A stretch of DNA of 64,000 bases from the NCBI GenBank assembly GCA_902611815.1, contig CACMAZ010000001.1, positions 35,430 to 99,429 of the forward strand, in the 5' to 3' direction. A model generated the notes under the pieces. It was not told the DNA's origin. It saw nothing but the letters and a program-made list of their open reading frames with translations, and did no database searches. The position numbers and the translations under genes are program-made. The DNA is from an uncultured Pelagibacteraceae bacterium. Lineage in GTDB: Bacteria > Pseudomonadota > Alphaproteobacteria > Pelagibacterales > Pelagibacteraceae. Below, piece by piece: positions 3,675 through 45,298 of this stretch (its first letter is position 1; each line of letters begins with the position of its first letter).

Positions 3675-4337
3675 ATGACTTTAAAAATAAATAGCTTAGC
3701 ACCTGACTTTAAAGCTAAAACAACTATAGGTGATATATCATTTCACGAGTGGTTAGGAGATAGTTGGGGTGTTTTATTTTCGCATCCAAAAGATTTTACT
3801 CCAGTTTGTACAACTGAACTTGGATCTTTAGCTAGAATGAAACCTGAGTTTGATAAAAGAAATGTCAAAGTTATTGGTTTAAGTGTAGACCCAGTTGCAG
3901 ATCACGTTAAATGGCTGGACGACATTAAAGATGTAACAGGAATGAAACCTGATTATCCAATAATTGCGGATGAGGATCTAAAAATTGCAAAACTTTATAA
4001 TATGTTAGAGGGTGATGCAGGAACTACTTCAATGGGTAGAACTGCAGTTGATAACCAAACAGTTAGAACAGTTTTTATTATTAGACCAGATAAAAGAATT
4101 GGTTTGTTCTTAACTTATCCAATGGCAACTGGAAGAAACTTTATGGAATTATTGAGATCAATAGACTCAATGCAGTTAACTGCAAAACATAAAGTTGCAA
4201 CACCAGCAGATTGGAAAAAAGGTGAAGAAGTTATCATTGTTCCAGCGGTCAAAGATGATGAAGCTAAGAAATTGTTTCCAGATGGTTGGAATGCAGTTAA
4301 ACCTTATTTAAGAAAAGTACCAGATCCATCGAAGTAG
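3675..4337 (+). CDS. 1-Cys type peroxiredoxin (Prx6-like)
   Basis: A 220-residue thiol peroxidase. The peroxidatic cysteine is C45 in the signature HPKDFTPVCTTELG, which places it in the AhpC/TSA superfamily. The length, the GRTAVDNQTVRTVFIIRPDKRI region, LFLTYPMATGRNFMELLR and the long C-terminal domain ending KPYLRKVPDPSK indicate the Prx6 (1-Cys) branch, which reduces H2O2 and organic peroxides using an external thiol. A strong SD (AAAAGGAG) precedes the ATG. It is divergent from the persulfide dioxygenase-like operon, and the downstream methyltransferase begins two bases after its stop. Confidence 0.92.
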   Translation: MTLKINSLAPDFKAKTTIGDISFHEWLGDSWGVLFSHPKDFTPVCTTELGSLARMKPEFDKRNVKVIGLSVDPVADHVKWLDDIKDVTGMKPDYPIIADEDLKIAKLYNMLEGDAGTTSMGRTAVDNQTVRTVFIIRPDKRIGLFLTYPMATGRNFMELLRSIDSMQLTAKHKVATPADWKKGEEVIIVPAVKDDEAKKLFPDGWNAVKPYLRKVPDPSK

Positions 4338-4338
4338 G

Positions 4339-4992
4339 TTGGACAATAAGATTTTAATCGAACAATCTCAGCATTGGGAAAAAAGTTTCTCAAGTAAGCC
4401 TGAGATGTTTGGTTCTGAACCAAGTCACTCTGCAAAAATAGCTTTAGAAAATTTTAAGAAAAATAACGTAAAACACATCATTGAACTTGGTGCAGGACTA
4501 GGACGAGATACAATTTTTTTTGCTAAAAATTCTATTAAAGTAACTGCTTTAGATTATAGCCCAACTGCAGTTGAAATAATTAAAAATAAGTCAAACAGCT
4601 TAGGTTTAAATGATTTGATTAACGCTCAAACACATGACTTAAGACAAAAATTAAATTTTGCAGATAATAGTTTTGATGGTTGTTACTCACATATGCTTTA
4701 TTGTATGGCTTTTACATATTCTGAATTAGAAAATTTGAATACCGAGGTCTGTAGAGTTTTAAATAAAGATTCATTAAATATTTATACAGTTAGAAACCAT
4801 TCAGATGCAGATTATAAAAAAGGTACACATCGAGGTGAAGATCTATATGAAATGAATGGATATATTGTTCATTATTTTTCAGATGAAAAAATTAAAAAAT
4901 TAGTAAAAGGATTTAAAAATTTAAGTATTGATCATTTTAATGAAGGAAGTTTTCCTAGAAAATTATCATTAGTCGTTAATCAAAAAATTTAA
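4339..4992 (+). CDS. Class I SAM-dependent methyltransferase
   Basis: A 217-residue protein with the Rossmann methyltransferase core: motif I HIIELGAGLGRDTIFFAK, motif II VTALDYSPTAVEII, and a post-core DNSFDGCYSHMLYC segment. The N-terminal WEKSFSSKPEMFGSEPS resembles TehB/thiopurine-like and other small-molecule methyltransferases, but the substrate cannot be read from sequence. The start is a TTG at 4339 immediately after the peroxiredoxin stop. No ATG lies before the conserved WEKSF region, so TTG is the sensible choice. It is co-transcribed with the peroxiredoxin and followed one base later by the LysE exporter gene. Confidence 0.8.
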   Translation: MDNKILIEQSQHWEKSFSSKPEMFGSEPSHSAKIALENFKKNNVKHIIELGAGLGRDTIFFAKNSIKVTALDYSPTAVEIIKNKSNSLGLNDLINAQTHDLRQKLNFADNSFDGCYSHMLYCMAFTYSELENLNTEVCRVLNKDSLNIYTVRNHSDADYKKGTHRGEDLYEMNGYIVHYFSDEKIKKLVKGFKNLSIDHFNEGSFPRKLSLVVNQKI

Positions 4993-4993
4993 T

Positions 4994-5608
4994 ATGGAAT
5001 ACTTATTAATTGGTTTTTTTACTGGTCTAAGTTTAATTTTAGCACTTGGTGCTCAAAATATATTTGTAATAGAGCAGGGTTTAAAAAGACAATATACTTT
5101 TTTAGTATGCTTAATTTGCTCAATTTCAGATTATCTTTTAATTTTTTTAGGTATTATCTTATTTGAATTCTTTCAAAGTTATTTTAACCAAACAATTGAA
5201 CTCATATTAAATATTCTATTATTATTATTTTTGTTACATTTTATTTATTCTAAAATAAAATTAAGTTTTTCAAATGTTGATTTTTCAACAAACAAAACTG
5301 ATGAAACTTTTAAAAGTATTTTCTTAAAGACCTTAGGCTTTACTTATTTAAATCCGCACGTTTATTCTGATACAGTTTTTTTTCTAGGAAATTTCTCTAA
5401 AAATTTTGCTTTGATTAACAAAATATATTTTGGATTAGGTGCCACGATATCTTCTTTTTTATTTTTTTTTACTATTGGTTATTTAGCAAATTATTTGTCC
5501 AAATATTTAAATAATAAAAGAACTTGGTTTTATATAAATATACTAGTCATTCTTTTTATGACTGTTTTGTCTTTATATGTTTTAAATACTATTCTTAATT
5601 TCTATTGA
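4994..5608 (+). CDS. LysE-family amino-acid exporter
   Basis: A 204-residue polytopic inner-membrane protein with about six hydrophobic helices. The N-terminal GLSLILALGAQNIFVIEQGLKR is the LysE/ArgO signature, and TLGFTYLNPHVYSDT corresponds to the conserved second-half motif (LNPhaylDt). The family exports basic amino acids, and ArgO/LysE-type arginine or lysine export is most likely. It starts one base after the methyltransferase stop. No LysG/ArgP regulator is adjacent. Confidence 0.88.
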   Translation: MEYLLIGFFTGLSLILALGAQNIFVIEQGLKRQYTFLVCLICSISDYLLIFLGIILFEFFQSYFNQTIELILNILLLLFLLHFIYSKIKLSFSNVDFSTNKTDETFKSIFLKTLGFTYLNPHVYSDTVFFLGNFSKNFALINKIYFGLGATISSFLFFFTIGYLANYLSKYLNNKRTWFYINILVILFMTVLSLYVLNTILNFY

Positions 5609-5675
5609 TATAGAACACTTTTAAACGTCAATTTAGACCCATTGGTTTTTAAAAAAAAATAACTAAATAAGAAGT

Positions 5676-6338
5676 ATGAACAATTTAGAAAAACATTATG
5701 AGCCAAATAACTTTAGCGATAAGGTTGCTTTAGGTTTTACAAAGTTTTTAAGATTTCTAGCTGATACTTTTTTTAAGAAAAGATACGGCCATAGAGCTGT
5801 TGTATTAGAAACAGTTGCTGCAGTACCTGGAATGGTAGCTGGAATGCTAATTCACTTAAAATCTCTAAGAAAAATGGAAGATGATAAAGGGTGGATTAAA
5901 ATTCTTTTAGATGAAGCAGAAAATGAAAGAATGCATTTAATGACTTTTATTCATGTTGCAAAGCCAACATGGTTAGAAAGAGTTATTATTTTGATGGCTC
6001 AATTTATTTTTATTGTTACATACGCTATTATTTATTTAGTATCTCAAAGAACTGCTCATAGAATTGTTGGATATTTTGAAGAAGAAGCTGTTAGAAGTTA
6101 CACAGAATATTTACACGAATTAGAGACTGGCAAAATAAAAGATGAGCCAGCTCCAGAAGTTGCAATAAATTATTGGAACTTACCTTTGCACGCTACACTT
6201 AAAGATGTAGTTAGAGTAATTCGTGATGATGAAGCGGGACACCGTGATGTGAACCATAGTTTTGCAAATATCATTAACGAAAAAAAATACCCTAAAAAAG
6301 AAGAAAATATTAGCTCTAAAGATTTAAGTAGAGAATAA
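5676..6338 (+). CDS. aox: Alternative oxidase (AOX), di-iron ubiquinol oxidase
   Basis: A 220-residue membrane-associated di-iron carboxylate protein. All six expected ligands can be placed: E in [12 protein letters not shown] and H in [12 protein letters not shown] in [10 protein letters not shown], and E and H in [11 protein letters not shown]. The [17 protein letters not shown] stretch and ERMHLM are diagnostic of AOX rather than of other ferritin-like proteins. It oxidises ubiquinol and reduces oxygen to water without pumping protons, and is bound to the cytoplasmic face of the membrane through the hydrophobic helix around [17 protein letters not shown]. It lacks the long plant N-terminal region. 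It appears monocistronic, with a 67-base gap upstream. Confidence 0.93.
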
Positions 6339-6380
6339 ATTCTATTTTTATATATTCATTTTTTAAATTTTCAATTTAAG

Positions 6381-8483
6381 ATGAATAAAATAATAAAAAT
6401 ATTTTATCTAATTTTATTATTTCTAAGCACATTTCATTTTAAAGCTATAGCGGAGCCAACCTTTGTCCAAAGCAAATCAATCGACACAGCCACTTATTAT
6501 GGACTTACATTTAATAATGATGGAACAAAAATGTATACTTTAAGAAGTGGAGGAACAACGGATGCAGTTATTGAACATATATTAACTACCGCATATGACA
6601 TTTCAACGGCAACCGTAAATAATACTAAAGTAGTACATGTAAGTGGAGGTAATAACTCTCATGTACCAACACAAGTAGTGTTCAATAACGATGGAACAAA
6701 AATGTTTATTGTTAACCATGCTGGTAGAAAGACAGTAGATTACTGGTCACTAAGTACTGCATTTGATGTTTCAACTGCTACATTTGATGGCGCATATAGT
6801 CTCGTTGGTAAAGAACAAAGAGCTAATTCAATTGCATTTAATAATGATGGTACCAGAATGTTTATTGCTGGTGTAGGAAATGACTCACAAGTACGTATTC
6901 ATGAATTTTCACTAGATACAGCATTTGATCTTAGCTCAGGAGTTACTCAACTTAATACTGAAGACCTAATTTCTTTTCACAATCACATAGATGGAGTTAC
7001 TTTTAATTACGATGGTACTAAAATGTATACCATTAATGGTACAGAAGATTTGATGTCTCAGTTTAAATTAACCACACCTTATGATGTTTCTACTTTATCT
7101 CTTGAAGGCACCTATGATGTAAGTTCTCTTACTAATAATTCAAGAGAAGTTGTGTTTAGTAATGATGGAAGTAAAATGTTTATCCTTGATGATCTCGATA
7201 ATAAAATTCATGAATTCAACCTAAGTTGTAATTGGAGCATAATCGATGGTGCTTGTGATGATCCAATAACTACTTCTGATGAGGGTAAAGATATTTTAAG
7301 TTCAATCGAGTCTCAAACTGCAACTGCTAAACAAATTGCTATTCAAGCAAGTACTCCAGTTCTTAACCGTATGTATTGGTTAAGAAGACATAGAACAAGC
7401 GATCAATTAAGTAATCAAAACATTAAATTTAACTTTCCAAATAAAACAATAGCGTCTTTAGCAAAAGTTATTCCAATATCTGAAAAATCAAATAATACTT
7501 TAAACAAGTTGTCTGACAGCTGGTCATTTTGGAGCGAAGGTAGTGTGAGTTTTGGTAAGACAGGCGATACATCTTCTTCATCATCTAAAAAAATTAATAC
7601 CAAGGGCATTACACTTGGAATGGATAAAAAGATAAGCAAAAATAGATTATATGGTTATGCACTTAGATTTGGTAATGATGATGTTGATGTAGGCACATCT
7701 GGAACTAATTTAGATACAAAGTCTTTTAGTTTATCTGTTTATGGAACTTTTCCTCATGATGATGAAAAATTTACTGAAGGTATTCTTGGAGTAAGCACAT
7801 TGAAGACTGATCATCTTAGAAAAGGCGGAGGAAGCACTAGAACAGGAGAGAGAGATGGTGCACAAATATTTGGCTCACTAAATTACTTATCAACATATAA
7901 AAAAGAAAATTTTAATATTACTCCTAATTTAAGAATTGATTTAAGCTATACAGAGTTGTCCAAATATAGAGAAAAAGGTCCTGCAGCTTTAGTTTACAAA
8001 GCTCAAACAATTGAAACTGGAATGATATCTACTGGTTTTACAATAAGTGATATTTTAGATTTTAATACTTTTACTTTTAAACCAAATGGTGGATTAGAGC
8101 TTGGAGTAGATTTTAGCCCGTCTTCAGACGCTACTTATCGTTATCTATCGGAAACTACAGAATATACAAAATCAATTGATCAAGATTCTAAAAATTTAAT
8201 AGCAAATATTGGATTTGATTTAATTACAGATAATGGTTTTTCTATAATGACTATCTATGAAAGAAATCAAAGTGACAATACCCATAGTGATACTTTGTAC
8301 ATAGGATTTGGTTATATTCCATCAGATAACAATGAATACGCTTTGAGCTTAGATAATGATAAAGCATCTCTAACTTATAACAAAAATTTAAATGGTTTTG
8401 ATATCAGAGTGAATGCAAATTATAATTTGATGAGTTCAATTCCTGATTATGGTGCAACTATTGAGCTTGCTAGTGCTTTTTAA
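6381..8483 (+). CDS. Autotransporter with a beta-propeller passenger
   Basis: A 700-residue exported protein. Residues 1-24 form a Sec signal peptide ending in AIA. Residues about 40-285 contain five repeats of a strand motif like FNNDGTKMY (near residues 44, 101, 153, 208 and 259), each followed by a LSTAFDVSTAT-like turn, which is a beta-propeller pattern. A linker with SIESQTATAKQIAIQAS leads to a C-terminal autotransporter-type beta-barrel at about residues 390-700, with GKTGDTSSSSSKKINTKGITLGMD at its start, regular amphipathic strands, and a terminal phenylalanine (ELASAF) expected for BAM recognition. It probably displays the propeller on the cell surface. The ligand is unknown. Propeller passengers are unusual, since most autotransporters carry beta-helices. 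Confidence 0.8.
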   Translation: MNKIIKIFYLILLFLSTFHFKAIAEPTFVQSKSIDTATYYGLTFNNDGTKMYTLRSGGTTDAVIEHILTTAYDISTATVNNTKVVHVSGGNNSHVPTQVVFNNDGTKMFIVNHAGRKTVDYWSLSTAFDVSTATFDGAYSLVGKEQRANSIAFNNDGTRMFIAGVGNDSQVRIHEFSLDTAFDLSSGVTQLNTEDLISFHNHIDGVTFNYDGTKMYTINGTEDLMSQFKLTTPYDVSTLSLEGTYDVSSLTNNSREVVFSNDGSKMFILDDLDNKIHEFNLSCNWSIIDGACDDPITTSDEGKDILSSIESQTATAKQIAIQASTPVLNRMYWLRRHRTSDQLSNQNIKFNFPNKTIASLAKVIPISEKSNNTLNKLSDSWSFWSEGSVSFGKTGDTSSSSSKKINTKGITLGMDKKISKNRLYGYALRFGNDDVDVGTSGTNLDTKSFSLSVYGTFPHDDEKFTEGILGVSTLKTDHLRKGGGSTRTGERDGAQIFGSLNYLSTYKKENFNITPNLRIDLSYTELSKYREKGPAALVYKAQTIETGMISTGFTISDILDFNTFTFKPNGGLELGVDFSPSSDATYRYLSETTEYTKSIDQDSKNLIANIGFDLITDNGFSIMTIYERNQSDNTHSDTLYIGFGYIPSDNNEYALSLDNDKASLTYNKNLNGFDIRVNANYNLMSSIPDYGATIELASAF
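6501..7226 (+). repeat. Five coding repeats forming propeller blades
   Basis: Five in-frame repeats of 51-57 codons encode FNNDGTKM(Y/F) followed by T(A/P)(Y/F)D(I/V/L)S. The first, second and third copies are closest (FNNDGTK, FNNDGTK, FNNDGTR). The fourth is FNYDGTK and the fifth FSNDGSK. The DNA copies are diverged, so this is an old protein repeat and not a recent tandem duplication. Confidence 0.75.
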
Positions 8484-8548
8484 AAATTATTTCATAATTC
8501 CAGAATAAAAAAACTTGATTAGTATAGTAAATGATTTAATGTAAAATT

Positions 8549-9064
8549 GTGAGAATTATAATTTTTATATCTGCATTACTTTTATTAAACTCATGTGCCA
8601 GCACTATGTCTGGTAATACACAGCCAGTTACAATTTCTACAAATGTTGCAAACGCAAAGTGTACACTAACTAATGAAAAAGGTTCTTGGTTAGCACAAGC
8701 ACCTGGCAGTGCTGTGGTCACAAATTCAAGAGAAAATTTATCTGTTAGATGTGAAAAAGAAGGGTATCAAACAGCAGTTGTTAGTGTGCCATCAAAACAT
8801 AAAGACTCAGCTACATGGGGAAATGTTATATTAGGTGGTGGGATAGGTTATATCTGGGATAGAAATACAGGGGCTGCATTTATATATCCATCAACAATAA
8901 ACTTGACTTTGGTTAAGAATGAAACATCAAACACAAATCAATCAACGGATGTTAAGTTATCAGGAAGCACCGTAGAACAACTGAAACAATTAAACGATTT
9001 ATACAAATCAGGTATATTGACTGAAAAAGAATTTACTAAAGCCAAAAAAAAATTATTAAATTAA
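8549..9064 (+). CDS. Lipoprotein with C-terminal SHOCT domain
   Basis: A 171-residue lipoprotein starting at GTG (8549). The N-terminal signal ends in the lipobox LLNSCAS, so Cys16 should be lipidated. The middle part (PVTISTNVANAKCTLTNEKGSW, GYQTAVVSV) resembles PEGA-like beta-sandwich carbohydrate or surface domains. A GGGIGYIWDRNTGAAFIYP glycine-rich stretch follows, as in small outer-membrane-associated lipoproteins. The last 30 residues (VEQLKQLNDLYKSGILTEKEF) form a SHOCT short helical domain. No good SD precedes the GTG. A CTTGAT/TAATGT pair about 6-35 bases upstream could give a leaderless transcript. Convergent with the hisD-like gene. Confidence 0.7.
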   Translation: MRIIIFISALLLLNSCASTMSGNTQPVTISTNVANAKCTLTNEKGSWLAQAPGSAVVTNSRENLSVRCEKEGYQTAVVSVPSKHKDSATWGNVILGGGIGYIWDRNTGAAFIYPSTINLTLVKNETSNTNQSTDVKLSGSTVEQLKQLNDLYKSGILTEKEFTKAKKKLLN

Positions 9065-9108
9065 ATCTTTAAAACTCAAAACTTAGCTAGTCAGCGCTTT
9101 GTAAAAAA

Positions 9109-10398
9109 TTATTCGTTTGAATATCCGTATTTACGTAATCTTACATCACCAGTTCTTGCATGAGCTTCCATGCCTTCATATCTTGAAATCCTAGCAGCTG
9201 CAGAACCAACTTCTTTTGTAGATTCTTTTGTCATTCTTTGAAAACTTAATGTTTTTATAAATTTACCAACGAACAACCCACCAGTATATTTACCAGCACC
9301 CTTAGTTGGTAATATATGATTGGTGCCAGAACATTTATCACCATAAGCAACAGTTGTTTCTTCCCCAATAAATAACGAACCGTAGTTTTTTAATCTCTCA
9401 TGAAACCATTCAAGATTTTTGGTTTGTATCTCTAAATGTTCAGGTGCATAATCGTCACTCACTTTCACCATTTCTTCATCCGTATCGCATAAAACAACTT
9501 CACCGTAATCTCTCCAAGCAGCCTCTGCACTTAACCTTGGAACTTCTGGAAGTTTCTCTATTAATTCTGGAACTCGTTTCATTACTTCATCTGCAATTTT
9601 TTGGCTTGTTGTGTATAACCAACATGGAGAATTATATCCGTGTTCAGCCTGACCAACTAAATCAACAGCCACAATTTCTGGATCTGCAGTTTCATCTGCA
9701 ATAATTCCAATTTCTGTTGGGCCAGCGAATAAATCAATTCCAACTTTTCCAAATAAAATTCTTTTAGCTTCAGCAACAAATTGATTTCCAGGACCAACTA
9801 AAATATCAGCTGGAGCATTTCCAAACATACCATACGTCATTGCGGCAATAGCTGGAACTCCACCAAGATTTAAAATTACATCAGCGCCACATAAATTTGC
9901 TGTATAAATTATAGAAGGGTGGGCACCAATTCCTTCTTTAGGGGGACAACAGGCAATAATATTTTTAACACCAGCAACTTTTGCAGTTGTAACACTCATT
10001 ACTGCAGATGCTATATGAGCGTATCTACCACCTGGGATATAACAACCCGCAGTATTAACAGGTACTAACTTTTGACCAGCGTATAATCCGTTTGATAATT
10101 CAACTTCAAAATCTTTTCCATAGTTTGCAAGTTGTGCTTCTGCAAATTTACGAACTCTATCATATGAAAATTTAATATCGTCTTTAGTTTTTTGATCTAA
10201 ATTTTTATTTATTTCCTCTATTTTTTCTTTTGAAACAATTATTTCTCCATCATATTTATCAAATTTTTTAGTTAATTCTTTACAGCCTTCTTCTTTTGAT
10301 TTTTCTAATTCTTTTAAAAGATTTTGAACTATATCTTTTGTTTTAGTGTCATCTGTTGATGCAGTTTTAGATGCTTTTTTTAAATATTTAATTGTCAT
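9109..10398 (-). CDS. HisD-family dehydrogenase, probably sulfopropanediol (HpsN-like)
   Basis: A 429-residue zinc/NAD dehydrogenase of the histidinol dehydrogenase family. The Zn ligands are present: Gln and His in VGQAEHGYNSP, Asp in AYGDKCSGTNHILPT, and His in YEGMEAHARTGD. NTAGCYIPGGRYAHIASAVM and GPGNQFVAEAKR match the NAD-binding halves. It is not in a his operon. It is the last gene of a minus-strand operon with phosphotransacetylase-like and malate/lactate-type dehydrogenase genes, close to a taurine-type ABC transporter. This is the context expected of HpsN, a HisD paralog that oxidises 2,3-dihydroxypropane-1-sulfonate to sulfolactate (established family knowledge). The substrate is inferred, and true HisD function is less likely. 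Confidence 0.75.
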   Translation of the reverse strand: MTIKYLKKASKTASTDDTKTKDIVQNLLKELEKSKEEGCKELTKKFDKYDGEIIVSKEKIEEINKNLDQKTKDDIKFSYDRVRKFAEAQLANYGKDFEVELSNGLYAGQKLVPVNTAGCYIPGGRYAHIASAVMSVTTAKVAGVKNIIACCPPKEGIGAHPSIIYTANLCGADVILNLGGVPAIAAMTYGMFGNAPADILVGPGNQFVAEAKRILFGKVGIDLFAGPTEIGIIADETADPEIVAVDLVGQAEHGYNSPCWLYTTSQKIADEVMKRVPELIEKLPEVPRLSAEAAWRDYGEVVLCDTDEEMVKVSDDYAPEHLEIQTKNLEWFHERLKNYGSLFIGEETTVAYGDKCSGTNHILPTKGAGKYTGGLFVGKFIKTLSFQRMTKESTKEVGSAAARISRYEGMEAHARTGDVRLRKYGYSNE

Positions 10399-37906: not shown

Positions 37907-38809
37907 ATGAATACTAACTTTCTAGATGAATTAACTGTAGTTATTTTAACCTATAAAACTAACGAGGAAATATTGAATAATTGTCTAAACTCTATAGATA
38001 AAAGAATTAAAATAAAAATAATAGAAAATTCAAAAAAATTTGAAAATGAAGAAAAGTTTTTAAAAAAATTCTCTAATCTTTCAATTGATTGTACAGGTAA
38101 AAATTTAGGATTTGGCAAGGGTAACAATTTTGGATTTAGACAAATAAATACAAAATATGCACTTGCATTAAGCCCAGATACAATTTTAGATAAAGATTTT
38201 TTCGAAAATATTAGAATCTATCTTAATGAAAAATTTGAATTTTCAATTTTAGGTGTCAATTTCTACGATGAAGATGTCAAAAAAAATGGTCATAGATCTT
38301 ATGGATACTTTTCGAAAAATAATTTAACAAAAGAATATAATGAAACTTTAATAGAGGCTGATTGGATAATTGGTTGTGCTATCATTATCGATTTAGATAA
38401 ATTTGTTGATAAAATTGTATTTGATGAAAATATATTCATATATTTTGAGGATTTTGATCTTTGTAAAACTATAACTAAAAAGGGAAAAAAAGTGTTTGCT
38501 AGCAAAATTCTTTTTATAAAACATATTGGAAACAGCAGTTCAATTGCGATTATACCAGAGCTCAAAAGTGCATCAAATAGGTTCCGCAGCTGGCACTGGA
38601 GATGGTCTGAATTTTACTTTTATAAAAAAAATTATAATTATTTTTATGCTCTCAGAAAATGTTTTTTGAAAATATTTAAATTTATAATTTTAATGATTTA
38701 TTTTAAGATCAGATTTAATAAGGAGGAATTTGATAAAAATAAGTATAGTTTTTTGGGTTTATATAATTCAATTATTGGAAGAAAATCCTTCTATAGAATT
38801 GAAAATTAG
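37907..38809 (+). CDS. GT2 glycosyltransferase, paralog of the preceding gene
   Basis: A GT2 enzyme of 300 residues from ATG 37907. The ORF track's start at 37895 is a TTG overlapping the previous stop. Both are possible, but ATG leaves nine residues before LTVVILTY, as in the paralog. Motifs are GKNLGFGKGNNFGFRQINTKYALALSPDTIL (SPDT in place of NPDV), DENIFIYFEDFDLCKTI and the shared C-terminal FRSWHWRWSEFYFYKKNYNYFYALRK. It is a tandem duplicate of the upstream transferase and ends 4 bases inside the convergent apt gene. Confidence 0.87.
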   Translation: MNTNFLDELTVVILTYKTNEEILNNCLNSIDKRIKIKIIENSKKFENEEKFLKKFSNLSIDCTGKNLGFGKGNNFGFRQINTKYALALSPDTILDKDFFENIRIYLNEKFEFSILGVNFYDEDVKKNGHRSYGYFSKNNLTKEYNETLIEADWIIGCAIIIDLDKFVDKIVFDENIFIYFEDFDLCKTITKKGKKVFASKILFIKHIGNSSSIAIIPELKSASNRFRSWHWRWSEFYFYKKNYNYFYALRKCFLKIFKFIILMIYFKIRFNKEEFDKNKYSFLGLYNSIIGRKSFYRIEN

Positions 38810-39333
38810 TGGCCAGGAAAATTAATTAAATTTTCGACCTCGTAACCAAGTTTTATTAGTTTGTCACATCCTTTTAAATCAAATAGATTTATTACAAAAA
38901 TAAAACCCGCAACTGATCCATTAGATAAATTTATTAATTTAGCAGCTGCCTCAGCTGTACCGCCAGTTGCAATCAAATCATCAATAATTAGTACTTTTTC
39001 ACCTTGATTAATAGAATCTTTGTGTACTTCTATAGTAGCCTTGCCGTATTCTAATTCAAAGTCAACAGAATAAGTATCTGCAGGTAATTTATTTTTTTTT
39101 CTTAACATAATAAAAGGTTTTTTAAGAGCAAAAGACACAGCTGAAGCAAATACAAAACCTCTAGATTCAATCGCTGCAATTTTATTAAAATTAAATTTTT
39201 TTGATTTTTCAATTATTTGATTAATTGTCTCTTCAAATGCTTTTTCATCTTTAATTAAAGTTGTAATGTCTCTGAATAAAATACCTTTTTTTGGATAGTC
39301 AGGTATAGATCTTATAAACTTTTTTAAATCCAT
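38806..39333 (-). CDS. apt: Adenine phosphoribosyltransferase
   Basis: A 175-residue type I phosphoribosyltransferase. The N-terminal IPDYPKKGILFRDITTL is APT-specific, KIAAIESRGFVFASAVSFALKKPFIMLRKKNKLP follows, and the PRPP-binding motif is VLIIDDLIATGGTAEAA. It makes AMP from adenine and PRPP. It is divergent from mtnP (41 bases), whose reaction releases adenine, so the pairing closes purine salvage from methylthioadenosine. Confidence 0.96.
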   Translation of the reverse strand: MDLKKFIRSIPDYPKKGILFRDITTLIKDEKAFEETINQIIEKSKKFNFNKIAAIESRGFVFASAVSFALKKPFIMLRKKNKLPADTYSVDFELEYGKATIEVHKDSINQGEKVLIIDDLIATGGTAEAAAKLINLSNGSVAGFIFVINLFDLKGCDKLIKLGYEVENLINFPGH

Positions 39334-39374
39334 TTAAATTTGCGTTATATTATTAAATAAACTATCTTTTAAAT

Positions 39375-40247
39375 ATGGCAAACAATAAATTGGCAATTAT
39401 CGGTGGCAGTGGGTTGTATGATGTTGAAGAATTTAAAGATAGAGAGTTATTAGACTTAAGAACACCCTGGGGAATTCCCTCAGACCAAATTTTAAAAACT
39501 CATTTTAAAGGAAAAGAGGTTTATTTCTTACCAAGACATGGTAGAGGGCATTTCATAAATCCATCTAAAATTAATTTTAGAGCAAACATAGATGCCTTGA
39601 AACAATTAGGTGTTACGGATATAATTTCTGTATCAGCAGTTGGATCATTAAAAGAAGAACTACCACCAGGTAAATTTGTAATTGTCGACCAATTTATTGA
39701 TCGAACTTTTGCAAGAAATAAAACATTTTTTGACGATGAAATAGTAGCACACGTATCGATGGCTCATCCAACCTCGAATGGATTAATGAATGCATGTGAA
39801 GAAGCCATTAAAAAAGAAAAAATTGAATATCAAAGAGGTGGAACATACGTGGTTATGGAAGGACCTCAATTTTCAACATTAGCTGAGTCTAATTTATACA
39901 GGTCTTGGAAAGCAGATGTTATTGGAATGACCAATATGCCAGAAGCTAAATTAGCTAGAGAAGCTGAAATAAGATACGCATCAGTTTCAATGGTAACTGA
40001 CTATGATTGTTGGCACCCTGATCATGAAAATGTTGATGTTCAGCAAGTAATAAAAGTTCTTTTAGGTAATGCTGCTAAAGCAAAAAATATGATAAAGAAT
40101 ATCATCGATATTTTTGAAAGTCATATTGACCCTAAAGATCCTACAAATAATTGCTTAGATGTAGCAATAATTACTGCACCTGAAAAAAGAACGCAAAAAA
40201 CGAAAGATAAATTAAAAACCGTTGCAGGTAGAGTTTTAAATAAATGA
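39375..40247 (+). CDS. mtnP: S-methyl-5'-thioadenosine phosphorylase
   Basis: A 290-residue PNP/MTAP family 2 enzyme. The phosphate loop is IIGGSGLYDVEEF, then PRHGRGHFINPSKINFRANIDAL, VMEGPQFSTLAESNLYRSWKADVIGMTNMPEAKLAREAEI, in which the MTNMPEA region is typical of MTAP, and VTDYDCWHPDHENV. It cleaves MTA to adenine and 5-methylthioribose-1-phosphate. Its stop overlaps the mtnA start by four bases, starting a compact operon mtnP-mtnA-aldolase-speDE. Confidence 0.95.
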   Translation: MANNKLAIIGGSGLYDVEEFKDRELLDLRTPWGIPSDQILKTHFKGKEVYFLPRHGRGHFINPSKINFRANIDALKQLGVTDIISVSAVGSLKEELPPGKFVIVDQFIDRTFARNKTFFDDEIVAHVSMAHPTSNGLMNACEEAIKKEKIEYQRGGTYVVMEGPQFSTLAESNLYRSWKADVIGMTNMPEAKLAREAEIRYASVSMVTDYDCWHPDHENVDVQQVIKVLLGNAAKAKNMIKNIIDIFESHIDPKDPTNNCLDVAIITAPEKRTQKTKDKLKTVAGRVLNK

Positions 40248-41314
40248 AAATAGATGGAAAAGAATATCGTACTATTTGGTTTGAAAATAATATTGTTAAA
40301 ATAATTGATCAAACAAAACTTCCACATCAATTTATTATTAAAGATTTAAAAACAGTTAAAGATACAATTAATGCAATAAAAACAATGGAAGTAAGAGGTG
40401 CACCTTTAATAGGAGCTACCGCAGCATATGGATTAGTTTTAGCTATTTTAGAAAATGATGATCAATCTTTTTTAAAAAAATCAGCTAGCGAATTAATTAA
40501 ATCTAGACCAACTGCTATTAATTTAAAATGGGCAGTAGATAGAATGATGAGAAAATTATCAGGTGTTAATAGTGATAAAATTTTAGAGATAGCTACCAAT
40601 CAAGCAAAAGAAATTTGTGAAGAGGATATTAAGTTTTGTGAGAATATAGGTTTAAATGGTCTTAAAATAATCGAGGATATTTATAACAAAAAAAAAGATA
40701 CGGTGAATATTTTAACTCATTGCAATGCAGGATGGCTTGCAACTATTAATTGGGGAACCGCAACTTCTCCAATATATCATGCACATAAAAAAGGTATACC
40801 AGTTCATGTTTGGGCAGATGAAACTAGACCAAGAAATCAAGGCGCAAATCTCACTTCTTACGAATTAAACGAGGAAGGAATTAATAATACAATCATTGCA
40901 GACAATACTGGTGGTATTTTAATGCAAAGAGGGGAAGTTGACATGTGTATTGTTGGGACTGATAGAACTCTAGCAAATGGCGACGTTTGTAATAAAGTTG
41001 GCACCTATCTTAAAGCACTCGCCGCCCATGATAATAAAGTTCCTTTTTACGTAGCTCTTCCAAGTTCGACAATTGATTGGAATATAAAAGATCACAAAGA
41101 AATACCTATTGAGGAGAGAAATTCTGATGAACTATCTCACATAGAAGGTTTTGACAGTGAGGGAAATTTAAAAAAAATACAAATTTATCCAAAGAAAAGT
41201 AAAGTAATGAATTTAGCATTTGATGTTACACCTGCAAAATATGTGACTGGTTTAATTACTGAAGAAGGTATTTGTGAAGCATCCACAGAGGGATTAAAAA
41301 AATTATTTAAATGA
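40244..41314 (+). CDS. mtnA: Methylthioribose-1-phosphate isomerase
   Basis: A 356-residue enzyme of the eIF2B-like fold. Substrate-binding RGAPLIGATAAYG, the catalytic cysteine in LTHCNAGWLATINWGTATSP, ADNTGGILM, and the catalytic aspartate in VGTDRTLANGDVCNKVGTY are all present, with FDVTPAKYVTGLITEEG at the end. It converts methylthioribose-1-phosphate to methylthioribulose-1-phosphate. It overlaps both neighbours by four bases (ATGA), indicating coupled translation. Confidence 0.96.
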   Translation: MKIDGKEYRTIWFENNIVKIIDQTKLPHQFIIKDLKTVKDTINAIKTMEVRGAPLIGATAAYGLVLAILENDDQSFLKKSASELIKSRPTAINLKWAVDRMMRKLSGVNSDKILEIATNQAKEICEEDIKFCENIGLNGLKIIEDIYNKKKDTVNILTHCNAGWLATINWGTATSPIYHAHKKGIPVHVWADETRPRNQGANLTSYELNEEGINNTIIADNTGGILMQRGEVDMCIVGTDRTLANGDVCNKVGTYLKALAAHDNKVPFYVALPSSTIDWNIKDHKEIPIEERNSDELSHIEGFDSEGNLKKIQIYPKKSKVMNLAFDVTPAKYVTGLITEEGICEASTEGLKKLFK

Positions 41315-41958
41315 AAAATTTAGAAAAAAGAAAAGAAGTAATTAAATATTCAATTAAACTTAATACCACAAACTTATCTCCTTTAAGATCTGGAAATATC
41401 TCAGTTAGAAGTTTTGAAAATAGTGTTGAGGGTTTTCTAATAACTCCTTCAGGAAAAAAATACGATACACTCAAAGAGGAGGATATAGTTTTTGTATCCA
41501 GTGATGGAAATCACGATATAAACTTAAAACCATCATCTGAATGGAGATTTCATAAAGATATTTATTTGAAAAAAACAGATGCAAAAGCGATAGTTCATGC
41601 TCATTCTCCACACGCAACGGCTGTATCAGCCCATGGTAAAGATATCCCAGCTTTTCATTATATGATAGCTTTAGCAGGCGGCGACAGTATCAAATGTGCC
41701 AAGTACGCAACTTTTGGTACACAAGAACTGTCTGATAATATTATTGATGCATTAGAAAATAGAAAAGCTTGTTTAATGTCAAATCATGGACAAGTTGCAT
41801 TTGGAGAAAATTTAGAAAGTGCATTTGAATTAGCCGAGGAACTAGAAAATATTTGTCATCAATACATAAATACAATAAAGTTAGGAGATCCTAAGATTCT
41901 TTCATCAAGTGAGATGGATGTAATATTAGAAAAAGTAAAAAATTATAAAAAAGGATAA
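41311..41958 (+). CDS. Class II aldolase/adducin family enzyme (methylthioribulose-phosphate aldolase candidate)
   Basis: A 215-residue zinc enzyme of the FucA/AraD fold. Zn ligands are two His in VHAHSPHATAVSAHG and one in MSNHGQVAFG. The catalytic acid is Glu in PSSEWRFHKDIY. The same fold includes MtnB dehydratase and the aldolase of the DHAP shunt that splits methylthioribulose-1-phosphate into DHAP and methylthioacetaldehyde. No mtnC, mtnD or mtnK-type gene is nearby, so aldolase action is favoured (inference). MtnB remains possible. Confidence 0.85.
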   Translation: MKNLEKRKEVIKYSIKLNTTNLSPLRSGNISVRSFENSVEGFLITPSGKKYDTLKEEDIVFVSSDGNHDINLKPSSEWRFHKDIYLKKTDAKAIVHAHSPHATAVSAHGKDIPAFHYMIALAGGDSIKCAKYATFGTQELSDNIIDALENRKACLMSNHGQVAFGENLESAFELAEELENICHQYINTIKLGDPKILSSSEMDVILEKVKNYKKG

Positions 41959-41963
41959 TTTTT

Positions 41964-43004
41964 ATGACGAAAGTAGGGGAACACGTCACTTTTGATATTA
42001 TTGGAACTCAAAAAGAGTATGATCCAAAATTTTACGAAAAATTAGTTTATAAAATTGCTAAAAAAGCAAAAGTCGTAGTCCTAGAAATTTCAAAATATAA
42101 ATTTGAACCTCAAGGTTTTACTTTAGTAGCATTATTAGCAGAATCTCATATTAGTTTTCATACATTTCCTGAAAAAGGGATTATAAGTTTTGATTTTTTT
42201 ACTTGTGGCAAGGTATCCCCATCTGTTGCTTTAGAGGTGTTAAAGAAAGAGATTAAACATATAAGGATAGTAAAGAAAGAGTTTAATAGAGATACAGTAG
42301 ATTATTATGATGATATTTATAGTTCACAAGGCCTTAAAAAATATTATATGGTTAAAAATATTCTTGAGGACTTCACATCAAAAGTAGGACAACACATTCA
42401 AATTTTAGATCTAGAGCAATTTGGCAAAGCTTTGTTTATAGATAATGAATTACAAGTAGCAGAGAAAGATGAACACCTTTATAGCTCTACTTTTGTAAAT
42501 TCTGGATTAAAACTAAATTCAGAAAAAAATAATTCAGCTATAATTGGAGGTGGAGATGGAGGAGTAGCACGAGAATGTATTAATCAAGGTTTCAATTATA
42601 TAGATTGGTTTGAGCTTGATCCCCAGGTAGTCGATGTATGTGAAAAACATCTTAGTAAGGTTGGACAAAAAGCGACAAAAAAGAACTCTGTTAAGTGTGT
42701 ATGGGGAGATGCTTTTGAAAGTATAAAAAAAGTTGAGGACAACAAATATGATAAAATTTTTGTGGACTTAAACGATGATCAATATTGTATCGACCTTGCT
42801 GCAAAAAATATTAAGTCTTTAAAAAGAATTTTAAAACCTAATGGCACTATCACTGCTCAAGTTGGCAGCCAGGACAAAAAACCAAAACAAGTTGAAAAAT
42901 GGCTAAATTTATTTAGAAAAAGTTTTGGTAATTCTTCTCTAGATAGAATTTATATACCAAGTTTCGATTGTTCTTGGAATTTTGCATCATCATTAAATAA
43001 ATAA
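41964..43004 (+). CDS. Fused S-adenosylmethionine decarboxylase-spermidine synthase
   Basis: A 346-residue fusion. Residues 1-110 are a class 1b AdoMet decarboxylase (SpeD). The self-cleavage site is Glu60-Ser61 in LLAESHISFHTFPEKG, with His66 and Cys81 (DFFTCG) as the processing and catalytic residues. Residues about 112-346 are an aminopropyltransferase (SpeE) with AIIGGGDGGVARE and DWFELDPQVVDVCEKHL. The catalytic loop FVDLNDDQ is less standard than the usual D-[ST]-x-D-P. It would make decarboxylated AdoMet and transfer its aminopropyl group to a diamine, releasing MTA. The MTA salvage genes lie directly upstream, starting with a five-base gap. Confidence 0.88.
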   Translation: MTKVGEHVTFDIIGTQKEYDPKFYEKLVYKIAKKAKVVVLEISKYKFEPQGFTLVALLAESHISFHTFPEKGIISFDFFTCGKVSPSVALEVLKKEIKHIRIVKKEFNRDTVDYYDDIYSSQGLKKYYMVKNILEDFTSKVGQHIQILDLEQFGKALFIDNELQVAEKDEHLYSSTFVNSGLKLNSEKNNSAIIGGGDGGVARECINQGFNYIDWFELDPQVVDVCEKHLSKVGQKATKKNSVKCVWGDAFESIKKVEDNKYDKIFVDLNDDQYCIDLAAKNIKSLKRILKPNGTITAQVGSQDKKPKQVEKWLNLFRKSFGNSSLDRIYIPSFDCSWNFASSLNK

Positions 43005-43060: not shown

Positions 43061-43888
43061 ATGAATGTGATCAAGAAATTCAGTTTAGGATTATTGATAA
43101 CTTTATTTTTATCATTATCCGCTAATGCTGATAAAATAAGAATTGGTACTGAGGGTGCTTATCCACCATGGAATTCAAAAGATGCTTCAGGTAAATTAAT
43201 TGGATTTGAAGTTGAGTTAGCGTGGACACTTTGTAGATACATTGGACAACAGTGTGAAATTGTTGAGCAAGATTGGGACGGCATGATACCTGCATTAATA
43301 ATGAGAAAATTTGATGCAATAATGGCTGGAATGTCAATTACCGATGAAAGAAAAAAAGCTATTAACTTTTCACAGGGTTACGCAGACGAAGTAGCTTCAT
43401 TAGCAGTAATGAAAGGTTCAAATCTAGAGGGCATGCAAACTTCTGAAGGAATTAATCTTACTAAAAAGTCTGGTGCTGTAAAAAAAGATTTAAAAACTAT
43501 AACCCAAGCTTTAGCTGGTAAAACCGTATGTGTACAAACAGCTACTATTCACCAAAACTTTTTAGAGTCTGGTGATGTGGGTAAAGTAAATGTCAGAACT
43601 TATAAGACACAAGATGAAGTTAATTTAGATTTAGCATCTGGAAGATGTGATGTAGCTCTTGCTGCTGCTGTAGCTTTTACTGATTATGCAGAGAAATCTA
43701 AAAAACCAGTCGTGCTTGTTGGGCCTACATTTTCAGGAGGTGCTTTTGGAAATGGTGTAGGTGTTGGTATAAGAAAAGACGACGCTGAACTATTAAAAGC
43801 TTTTAACAGCGCAATTAATAAAGCTAGAAAGAACGGAGACATTAGCCGAATTGCAACTAAATGGTTTGGCTTCGACGCTTCAATGTAA
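43061..43888 (+). CDS. Polar amino-acid ABC transporter substrate-binding protein
   Basis: 275 residues from ATG 43061, chosen over the track start (43037, TTG) because GGAGG lies five bases upstream and MNVIKKFSLGLLITLFLSLSANA is a proper signal peptide. The mature start DKIRIGTEGAYPPWNSKDASGKLIGFEVELAWTLC is the family 3 (HisJ/ArgT/ArtJ) signature, with EQDWDGMIPALIMRKFDAIMAGMSIT and the second-lobe FGNGVGVGIRKDD. Basic amino acids or opine-like ligands are likely. An inserted segment (GSNLEGMQTSEGINLTKKSG) lies between the lobes. It is followed by a hairpin and two permease genes. Confidence 0.92.
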   Translation: MNVIKKFSLGLLITLFLSLSANADKIRIGTEGAYPPWNSKDASGKLIGFEVELAWTLCRYIGQQCEIVEQDWDGMIPALIMRKFDAIMAGMSITDERKKAINFSQGYADEVASLAVMKGSNLEGMQTSEGINLTKKSGAVKKDLKTITQALAGKTVCVQTATIHQNFLESGDVGKVNVRTYKTQDEVNLDLASGRCDVALAAAVAFTDYAEKSKKPVVLVGPTFSGGAFGNGVGVGIRKDDAELLKAFNSAINKARKNGDISRIATKWFGFDASM

Positions 43889-43901
43889 ATATTTAATGAT
43901 T

Positions 43902-43927
43902 GGCGACTATATATTATAGTCGCCTTT
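43902..43927 (+). terminator. Perfect 10-bp stem-loop after the amino-acid binding-protein gene
   Basis: GGCGACTATA, loop TAT, TATAGTCGCC (43902-43924), then TTT. The stem is perfectly paired, begins 13 bases after the binding-protein stop and ends seven bases before the permease ATG. The T-tract is short, so it may act mainly as an RNA 3-prime stabiliser or partial attenuator, and it occupies the place of the ribosome binding site of the next gene. Confidence 0.75.
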
Positions 43928-43931
43928 CAAT

Positions 43932-44624
43932 ATGGATCTTTTAGCATTCGGAAATACAGGTTGGGGAGATGAACTATTCTTCGCAACACTAATGACAGTC
44001 GCTGTTTCAATATCAGCCATGGTCATAGGATTTTGTTTTGCTTTAATTTTTACTCCACTCAAACTATCCAAAAATAAATTTTTAAATTTTATTGGAAATT
44101 CTTACACAACAATAATTAGAGGTGTACCAGAATTATTAGTTATCTATTTATTATTCTTTGGTGGTAGTGGCGCAGTTATGTATGTTGCATCAATTTTTGG
44201 ATATAACAAATATATTGAAATAAATGCATTTATAACAGGTTCATTTGCAATTGGAATTATTTCAGGCGCATATTCAACAGAGGTTTTTAGAGGTGCCATA
44301 CTATCAATTGACAAAGGTCAATTTGAAGCTTCTAAAGTTTTAGGTTTAAAAAAACATGTTCACTTTTTTAAAGTGATAATGCCCCAAATGTTAAGACTTG
44401 CAATTCCCAATTTAAGCAATGTTTGGCAAATTACATTAAAAGATACTTCATTAATATCGGTAACTGGTTTGGTTGAAATAATGAGGCAATCTTATATTGC
44501 AGCTGGATCCACAAGAGACCCGCTATTCTTTTACTCCTTTGCAGCAGTTTTATATTTACTACTAACTTTTCTAAGTATGAAATTAATAAATAAATTAGAA
44601 ACAAAATATAGGAGAGGCTATTAA
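43932..44624 (+). CDS. Amino-acid ABC transporter permease (HisQ/OccQ-type)
   Basis: A 230-residue inner-membrane protein with about five helices. TIIRGVPELLVIYLLFFGG is the HisMQ family motif and the EAA loop is in FEASKVLGLKKHVHFFKVIMPQMLRLAIPNLSNVW, which docks the ATPase. With the next gene it forms the heteromeric channel for the upstream binding protein. No Shine-Dalgarno is seen before its ATG. Its stop overlaps the next start by one base (TAATG). Confidence 0.9.
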   Translation: MDLLAFGNTGWGDELFFATLMTVAVSISAMVIGFCFALIFTPLKLSKNKFLNFIGNSYTTIIRGVPELLVIYLLFFGGSGAVMYVASIFGYNKYIEINAFITGSFAIGIISGAYSTEVFRGAILSIDKGQFEASKVLGLKKHVHFFKVIMPQMLRLAIPNLSNVWQITLKDTSLISVTGLVEIMRQSYIAAGSTRDPLFFYSFAAVLYLLLTFLSMKLINKLETKYRRGY

Positions 44625-45298
44625 TGGATTTGGATTTGATGATAAGTAGTTTTCCAAAGCTTTTAAATGCAACTTTAGTAACTTTAAAATTGTTATCTTT
44701 ATCACTTATATTTGGACTTATACTTGGACTTTTTTTTGCAATCCTAAGATTAAATAAAAACATATTTTTAAATAAATTTTCTTACTTTTATTCATATGTA
44801 TTTAGAGGCACCCCTCTATTAGTTCAAATATTTATTATATACTTTGGATTAGGACAGATAGAATTTTTGAGATCTTCTTTTTTATGGATTATTTTAAAAG
44901 AACCTTATTGGTGTGCAATAATTGCTTTTTCTCTTAATACAGGCGCTTATACTTCCGAAATTTTAAGGTCAGCATTTGAAACTATAGATAAAGGTTTCCT
45001 AGAAGCCGGTGATAGTCTTGGTGTTTCTAAAAAAATTATATTTTATAAAATTCAAATACCTATTGCCATAAGACAATCATTACCTGCTTATGGGAATGAG
45101 ATTATATTAATGCTTAAAGGCACCTCACTAGCAAGCACCGTCACTTTGATGGACCTTACTGGAGTTGCAAAATACATAATATCAACAACCTTTAAACCTA
45201 TTGAAGTTTTTATTGTTGCTGGTGGAATATATTTATTTATGACTTTTATTATTCATAACGTTATTAAATTTCTTGAGAAAAAATATAGTTATAAGTGA
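44624..45298 (+). CDS. Amino-acid ABC transporter permease (HisM/OccM-type)
   Basis: A 224-residue partner permease with FRGTPLLVQIFIIYFGLGQ, NTGAYTSEILRSAFETIDKGFLEAGDSLGVSKKIIFYKIQIPIAIRQSLPAYGNE (EAA loop) and LKGTSLASTVTLMDLTG, all typical of HisM/OccM. No ATP-binding gene follows: the next gene is on the opposite strand. The transporter must use an ATPase encoded elsewhere, perhaps one shared with another amino-acid system. Confidence 0.9.
   Translation: MDLDLMISSFPKLLNATLVTLKLLSLSLIFGLILGLFFAILRLNKNIFLNKFSYFYSYVFRGTPLLVQIFIIYFGLGQIEFLRSSFLWIILKEPYWCAIIAFSLNTGAYTSEILRSAFETIDKGFLEAGDSLGVSKKIIFYKIQIPIAIRQSLPAYGNEIILMLKGTSLASTVTLMDLTGVAKYIISTTFKPIEVFIVAGGIYLFMTFIIHNVIKFLEKKYSYK

Follow-up and report, generated by a model that had tools for sequence, protein, structure and literature searches.

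The fusion of SpeD and SpeE is already a known enzyme of SAR11 bacteria. Expression of the fusions from two Ca. Pelagibacter strains, HTCC1062 and HTCC7211, restored spermidine in a speD deletion strain (PMC11107197). These proteins carry both domains in one chain and act as a functional decarboxylase and as a spermidine, spermine and thermospermine synthase; spermidine is formed before spermine and thermospermine, and diaminopropane is converted to norspermidine (PMC11107197). Characterization of the fusion, with its broad range of substrates, is credited to Green et al. 2011, as cited in PMC8437039, in which reverse running of the fusion enzyme is also proposed. In the accessible literature on the HTCC1062 and HTCC7211 enzymes, we found no discussion of the MTA-handling neighbours of their genes.

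The DHAP shunt, which disposes of 5'-methylthioadenosine (MTA), is also known. In R. rubrum, R. palustris and E. coli ATCC 25922, it consists of mtnP or mtnK together with mtnA and ald2, and it converts MTA through methylthioribose-1-phosphate and methylthioribulose-1-phosphate to DHAP and 2-methylthioacetaldehyde (PMC10986504, PMC5893883). Substrates derived from MTA and from 5'-deoxyadenosine are both accepted (PMC10986504). Methylthioethanol is metabolized further to methanethiol and methionine in R. palustris and accumulates in E. coli ATCC 25922 (PMC10986504, PMC5893883, PMC12632272). The 5-deoxyribose salvage cluster drdK/drdI/drdA has a homologous isomerase and class II aldolase and likewise yields DHAP and an aldehyde, but it begins at 5-deoxyribose with a kinase, whereas the locus described here links a phosphorylase and a polyamine enzyme (PMC6079011). 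One paper's scheme for Prochlorococcus names MTAP, apt and SpeE. No link of SAR11 to the DHAP shunt or to methylthioethanol was found in the largely open-access literature searched; within that same scope, the occurrence of the fusion and the DHAP shunt in one operon, and the three-way slot described below, appear to be undescribed. With the fusion and the shunt each known, the new element is the comparative finding of a slot for three modules.

The window, that is, the whole stretch of DNA analysed, comprises 64,000 nucleotides from an uncultured Pelagibacteraceae bacterium. It comes from a SAR11 species other than those of the expressed fusions. The locus encodes an MTA phosphorylase (MtnP), the isomerase MtnA and, in linkage with their genes, a class II aldolase (Table 1), the same enzyme set, in the same order of chemistry, as the DHAP shunt of R. 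rubrum, R. palustris and E. coli. SAR11 also resembles E. coli in lacking a complete pathway of classical salvage. In contrast to those organisms, SAR11 keeps the set and the MTA-producing enzyme in a single operon, and some SAR11 genomes have a replacement for the aldolase or for the entire set. We consider it probable (roughly 0.8) that the operon couples MTA production by the fusion to a DHAP shunt, and that other SAR11 genomes carry an alternative in the same slot. The first-pass annotation had placed mtnP three genes upstream of the fusion in a tight operon and had pointed to MTA as the link between them. The gene coordinates agreed with this: mtnP and mtnA, and mtnA and the aldolase gene, overlap by 4 bp each, a gap of 5 bp precedes the fusion, and the predicted substrate of MtnP is the by-product of the fusion. 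That annotation had omitted the aldolase gene between mtnA and the fusion and the divergent apt. Divergent promoters probably sit in the gap between apt and mtnP. A search of the window for RNA regulators returned only a tRNA.

Table 1. Features of the polyamine and MTA locus, with positions in the window
Feature	Position	Strand	Evidence
apt, adenine phosphoribosyltransferase	38806..39333	-	TIGR01090, 200.6 bits (cut-off 185.85); divergent from mtnP
Intergenic gap, 41 bp, between divergent apt and mtnP	39334..39374	.	ORF coordinates
mtnP, 5'-methylthioadenosine phosphorylase	39375..40247	+	NF006492, 445 bits (cut-off 437); TIGR01694, 315 (275)
mtnA, methylthioribose-1-phosphate isomerase	40244..41314	+	TIGR00512, 425 bits (cut-off 279)
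Class II aldolase, putative Ald2 (DHAP shunt)	41311..41958	+	PF00596, E 1e-51; FucA-type PDB matches
speD-speE fusion (class 1b AdoMet decarboxylase and aminopropyltransferase)	41964..43004	+	346 aa
AdoMet decarboxylase domain, residues 7-109, including H66 and C81	41982..42290	+	PF02675, TIGR03330
Predicted self-cleavage site E60-S61	42141..42146	+	Sequence; invariant in 33 fusions
Aminopropyltransferase portion (residues 120-341), containing GGGDGG and D268-x-x-D271	42321..42986	+	Pfam, alignment
Amino-acid ABC transporter	43061..45298	+	Family 3 binding protein 43061-43888; permeases 43932-44624 and 44624-45298

Both domains of the fusion lie in one uninterrupted reading frame, in the window as in 140 loci. 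Pfam matched AdoMet_dc (E 6.7e-26), Spermine_synt_N at residues 120-167 and Spermine_synth (PF01564) at residues 170-338 (E 2e-21), and the NCBIfam model of class 1b AdoMet decarboxylases, TIGR03330, gave 93.9 bits against a cut-off of 75.65. In an alignment of 33 SAR11 fusions with 62-98% identity, E60, S61, H66 and C81 were all invariant, as were the GGGDGG motif, D268, D271 and the loop DLNDD. These results bore out the two-domain reading of the chain that had been proposed from the sequence, a class 1b decarboxylase with its processing residues followed by an aminopropyltransferase. The catalytic loop had been singled out as a departure from D-[ST]-x-D-P, and it indeed reads F-V-D268-L-N-D271-D-Q; D268 and D271 nonetheless align with the D-x-x-D aspartates of solved spermidine synthases. 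The possibility that this loop marks a loss of catalysis was rejected, because the whole clade has the loop and neither aspartate is lost. The suggestion of a possible acceptor or product other than spermidine held in part: the orthologues do make spermine, thermospermine and norspermidine, but they make spermidine as well, as already published (PMC11107197). The fusion as such could not be upheld as a novelty, having been characterized in 2024 and, as cited in PMC8437039, by Green et al. 2011.

An AlphaFold2 model of the fusion, built from the 33-sequence alignment, had a mean pLDDT of 84.6. Its top whole-chain matches in the PDB were human spermine synthase structures (3c6k and 3c6m; TM 0.55-0.60), with a high rmsd, which indicated that the domain orientation in the fusion is different or uncertain; the aminopropyltransferase part alone fitted many spermidine synthases at 2-3 Å. 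Human spermine synthase (3c6k) shares the domain plan of the fusion at about 20% identity, but its N-terminal domain has lost decarboxylase activity. This best whole-chain match agrees with the published proposal that the ancestor of the animal enzyme was a bacterial AdoMetDC-SpmSyn fusion (PMC12803844). At a threshold of E 1e-30, none of 348 other Pseudomonadota genomes matched the fusion, in what was a sparse sample searched with a strict threshold. Fusions of these two enzymes have also been published outside SAR11.

The neighbourhood of the fusion and mtnP-mtnA, which the first-pass annotation had proposed to compare across SAR11, proved to be conserved but not uniform, in that the MTA module between apt and the fusion is swapped among three forms. 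Among the first 80 named SAR11 loci, mtnP-mtnA-ald2 mostly preceded the fusion, and six had another gene directly upstream, which encodes the aldolase/dehydrogenase protein described below. The three-module hypothesis arose from a few of the loci, and whole-genome searches of 148 Pelagibacterales were therefore the fairer test. Within the window's family, the fusion was found in 116 of 130 genomes; in the other Pelagibacterales family, it was found in none of 18. The module mtnP-mtnA-ald2 occurred in 89 genomes; a second, in which mtnP-mtnA is accompanied by a divergent fusion of an aldolase and a short-chain dehydrogenase (SDR), in 16 genomes of the window's family; and a third, consisting of a single MTA-nucleosidase-like gene with neither mtnP nor mtnA, in 11 genomes (10 beside the fusion and one without a fusion). 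Genome searches for mtnA and mtnP matched neither in the nucleosidase genomes. One module was present in 115 of the 116 fusion-bearing genomes and two modules in none; in the sole exception (G074), the fusion lies 143 bases from the contig start and the locus is broken there. All 140 loci with a full-length fusion had exactly one module directly upstream (111 ald2, 19 aldolase/SDR and 10 nucleosidase), and apt lies beside each of the three kinds of module in related loci. Fisher's test of ald2 versus the other two modules gave 4.8e-25, with kinship left uncorrected. The 148-genome and 140-locus samples share members and contain many near-copies, and these counts are therefore not independent.

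The alternative aldolase/SDR protein is 677 residues long and combines a class II aldolase domain with a short-chain dehydrogenase domain; no fewer than 19 of 20 copies conserve the aldolase Glu/His, the glycine-rich SDR and the YxxxK patterns. It scored 897 bits with NF006192, the bifunctional aldolase/short-chain dehydrogenase model (cut-off 639), and fell below the cut-off of the related RhaD-ADH model TIGR02632 (430.9 against 567.75). Because of this shortfall and its linkage to mtnP-mtnA, it is probably not a rhamnose enzyme. In one locus of the other family (L158), without a match to the fusion, apt, mtnP, mtnA and the aldolase/SDR gene all lie on one strand, which tied the aldolase/SDR protein to the MTA route independently of the fusion. 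The gene of the third module encodes about 175 residues of the phosphorylase/nucleosidase superfamily (PF01048, above cut-off). It was nearest to MTA/SAH nucleosidases but under the curated cut-offs (TIGR01704, at most 57.8 against 73.8; PRK05634, at most 95.8 against 129), and its product is here named nucleosidase-like only.

The module labels were mapped onto a phylogeny built from 117 distinct fusion proteins; it traces the proteins, not the species, and many of its inner branches are weak. At least 17 changes of module were needed, where the possible minimum is 2. Strongly supported branches alone forced 8 changes for ald2, 6 for aldolase/SDR and 3 for nucleosidase, and very close fusions were found with different modules (L162 and L118; L096 and L163). 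Different genes swapped at one place, and never occurring together, are expected if all of them serve the same step.

The assignment of the window aldolase bears on what this step is. The class II aldolase Glu/His positions were conserved in an alignment to FucA. Its closest solved relatives were E. coli FucA structures (E 2e-54), as would suit a fuculose-1-phosphate aldolase of sugar catabolism with no role in MTA metabolism. We find that role scarcely credible, given that the protein remained below the FucA cut-offs (TIGR01086, 190.8 against 400.25; another FucA-type model, 210.8 against 264), that its gene adjoins mtnA in SAR11, and that, for its nearest non-SAR11 relatives, which belong to other alphaproteobacteria, the gene is next to mtnA or mtnP at 23 of 26 loci. 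The same superfamily includes the dehydratase MtnB, and the MtnB model TIGR03328 gave the window protein 69.5 bits; if the protein were MtnB, the sulfur would return to methionine by classical salvage through MtnB, an enolase/phosphatase and MtnD. This score, however, is far under the cut-off of 137.05 and also under the 190-211 bits that the protein scored with FucA-type models. Above the family cut-offs, neither MtnB nor the acireductone dioxygenase MtnD was found in any of the 148 Pelagibacterales genomes, with one weak sub-threshold match for MtnD, whereas positive-control genomes matched for both. The missing MtnD largely refutes classical salvage, which we judge very unlikely. Among the matches listed, the window aldolase was under every NCBIfam equivalog cut-off, and there was no Ald2 model. 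By family and linkage, it is likely the Ald2 of a DHAP shunt. Since the product of the third gene is an aldolase and there is no acireductone dioxygenase, the MTA route is most likely a DHAP shunt and not the classical return to methionine, and MTA would most likely be converted to adenine, DHAP and methylthioacetaldehyde. The term "salvage operon" used at first is incomplete in this respect, as it suggests that methionine is regained.

A shunt of this kind might instead chiefly dispose of 5'-deoxyadenosine from radical SAM enzymes, yielding DHAP and acetaldehyde, with its adjacency to the fusion being secondary. Related three-gene clusters act on 5-deoxyribose (PMC6079011), and the described DHAP shunt handles both substrates (PMC10986504). 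On the other hand, a module was present in 115 of 116 fusion-bearing genomes but in only 1 of the 14 family genomes without the fusion, which indicated that the modules track the MTA-producing enzyme. We therefore hold a predominant use for 5'-deoxyadenosine to be unlikely; it is possible that the same enzymes serve 5'-deoxyadenosine as well as MTA.

In the preferred reading, the coupling of the fusion to a DHAP shunt, the fusion would undergo pyruvoyl self-processing and decarboxylate AdoMet, and would then move the aminopropyl group to diamines and triamines to give spermidine, spermine and thermospermine, with one MTA per transfer. MtnP would cleave MTA by phosphorolysis to adenine and methylthioribose-1-phosphate, MtnA would isomerize the latter, and Ald2 would split the resulting sugar phosphate into 2-methylthioacetaldehyde and DHAP, which would enter central metabolism; Apt would convert adenine to AMP. 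No dedicated reductase gene for 2-methylthioethanol was found in the operon. The aldolase/SDR protein would take the place of Ald2 and could reduce or oxidize the aldehyde with its own dehydrogenase domain, and in the nucleosidase module adenine would be freed for Apt and the route would end at methylthioribose. Protein families and gene context are the basis on which we predict what the SAR11 MtnP, MtnA, aldolases and nucleosidase act on and where the sulfur goes. A fuller version, to which we give slightly better than even odds, is a fixed SAR11 locus, next to the gene of the polyamine enzyme, at which three cassettes for MTA disposal replace one another, where one aldolase/dehydrogenase both cleaves methylthioribulose-1-phosphate and converts the aldehyde itself, and where close strains release either a methylthio-C2 compound or methylthioribose.

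SAR11 bacteria rank among the most numerous cells of the ocean and are reportedly dependent on external reduced sulfur. Each transfer in spermidine synthesis costs one AdoMet-derived methylthio group, and the gene content argues against classical recycling of that sulfur. Related ocean bacteria probably deal differently with the same sulfur waste, the toxic by-product MTA. If the modules work as predicted, strains would differ in whether DHAP carbon is regained and a methylthio-C2 compound released, or methylthioribose is discarded; if so, dissolved organosulfur, and possibly methanethiol, would have a source that has gone unrecognised.

Several other genes were observed around these loci. The transporter downstream of the fusion in the window is of the lysine/arginine/ornithine type, with a binding protein and two permeases and no adjoining ATPase gene. 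It was rejected as a member of the module, as the examined loci of genera g2, g4 and g5 have the fusion without it; as a same-strand neighbour in only part of SAR11, it probably lies outside the module. In genus g4 (L103:6406-7206 and L105:6336-7136), it is replaced right after the fusion by a gene resembling nitrilase-family amidohydrolases on sequence reading, and a link of this gene to agmatine or carbamoylputrescine is possible. In a genome of another genus (L157, G009; 6533-7615), there is no fusion, yet apt adjoins a nucleosidase-like gene. A 92% complete genome (L159, G109; 4320-9202) has apt-mtnP-mtnA with no fusion or aldolase detected and a sulfatase-like gene directly after mtnA. 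A gene that reads as phytanoyl-CoA-dioxygenase-type-like lies directly upstream of mtnA in some SAR11 loci (L058:1804-2604 and L159:5754-6545), in L159 between mtnP and mtnA.
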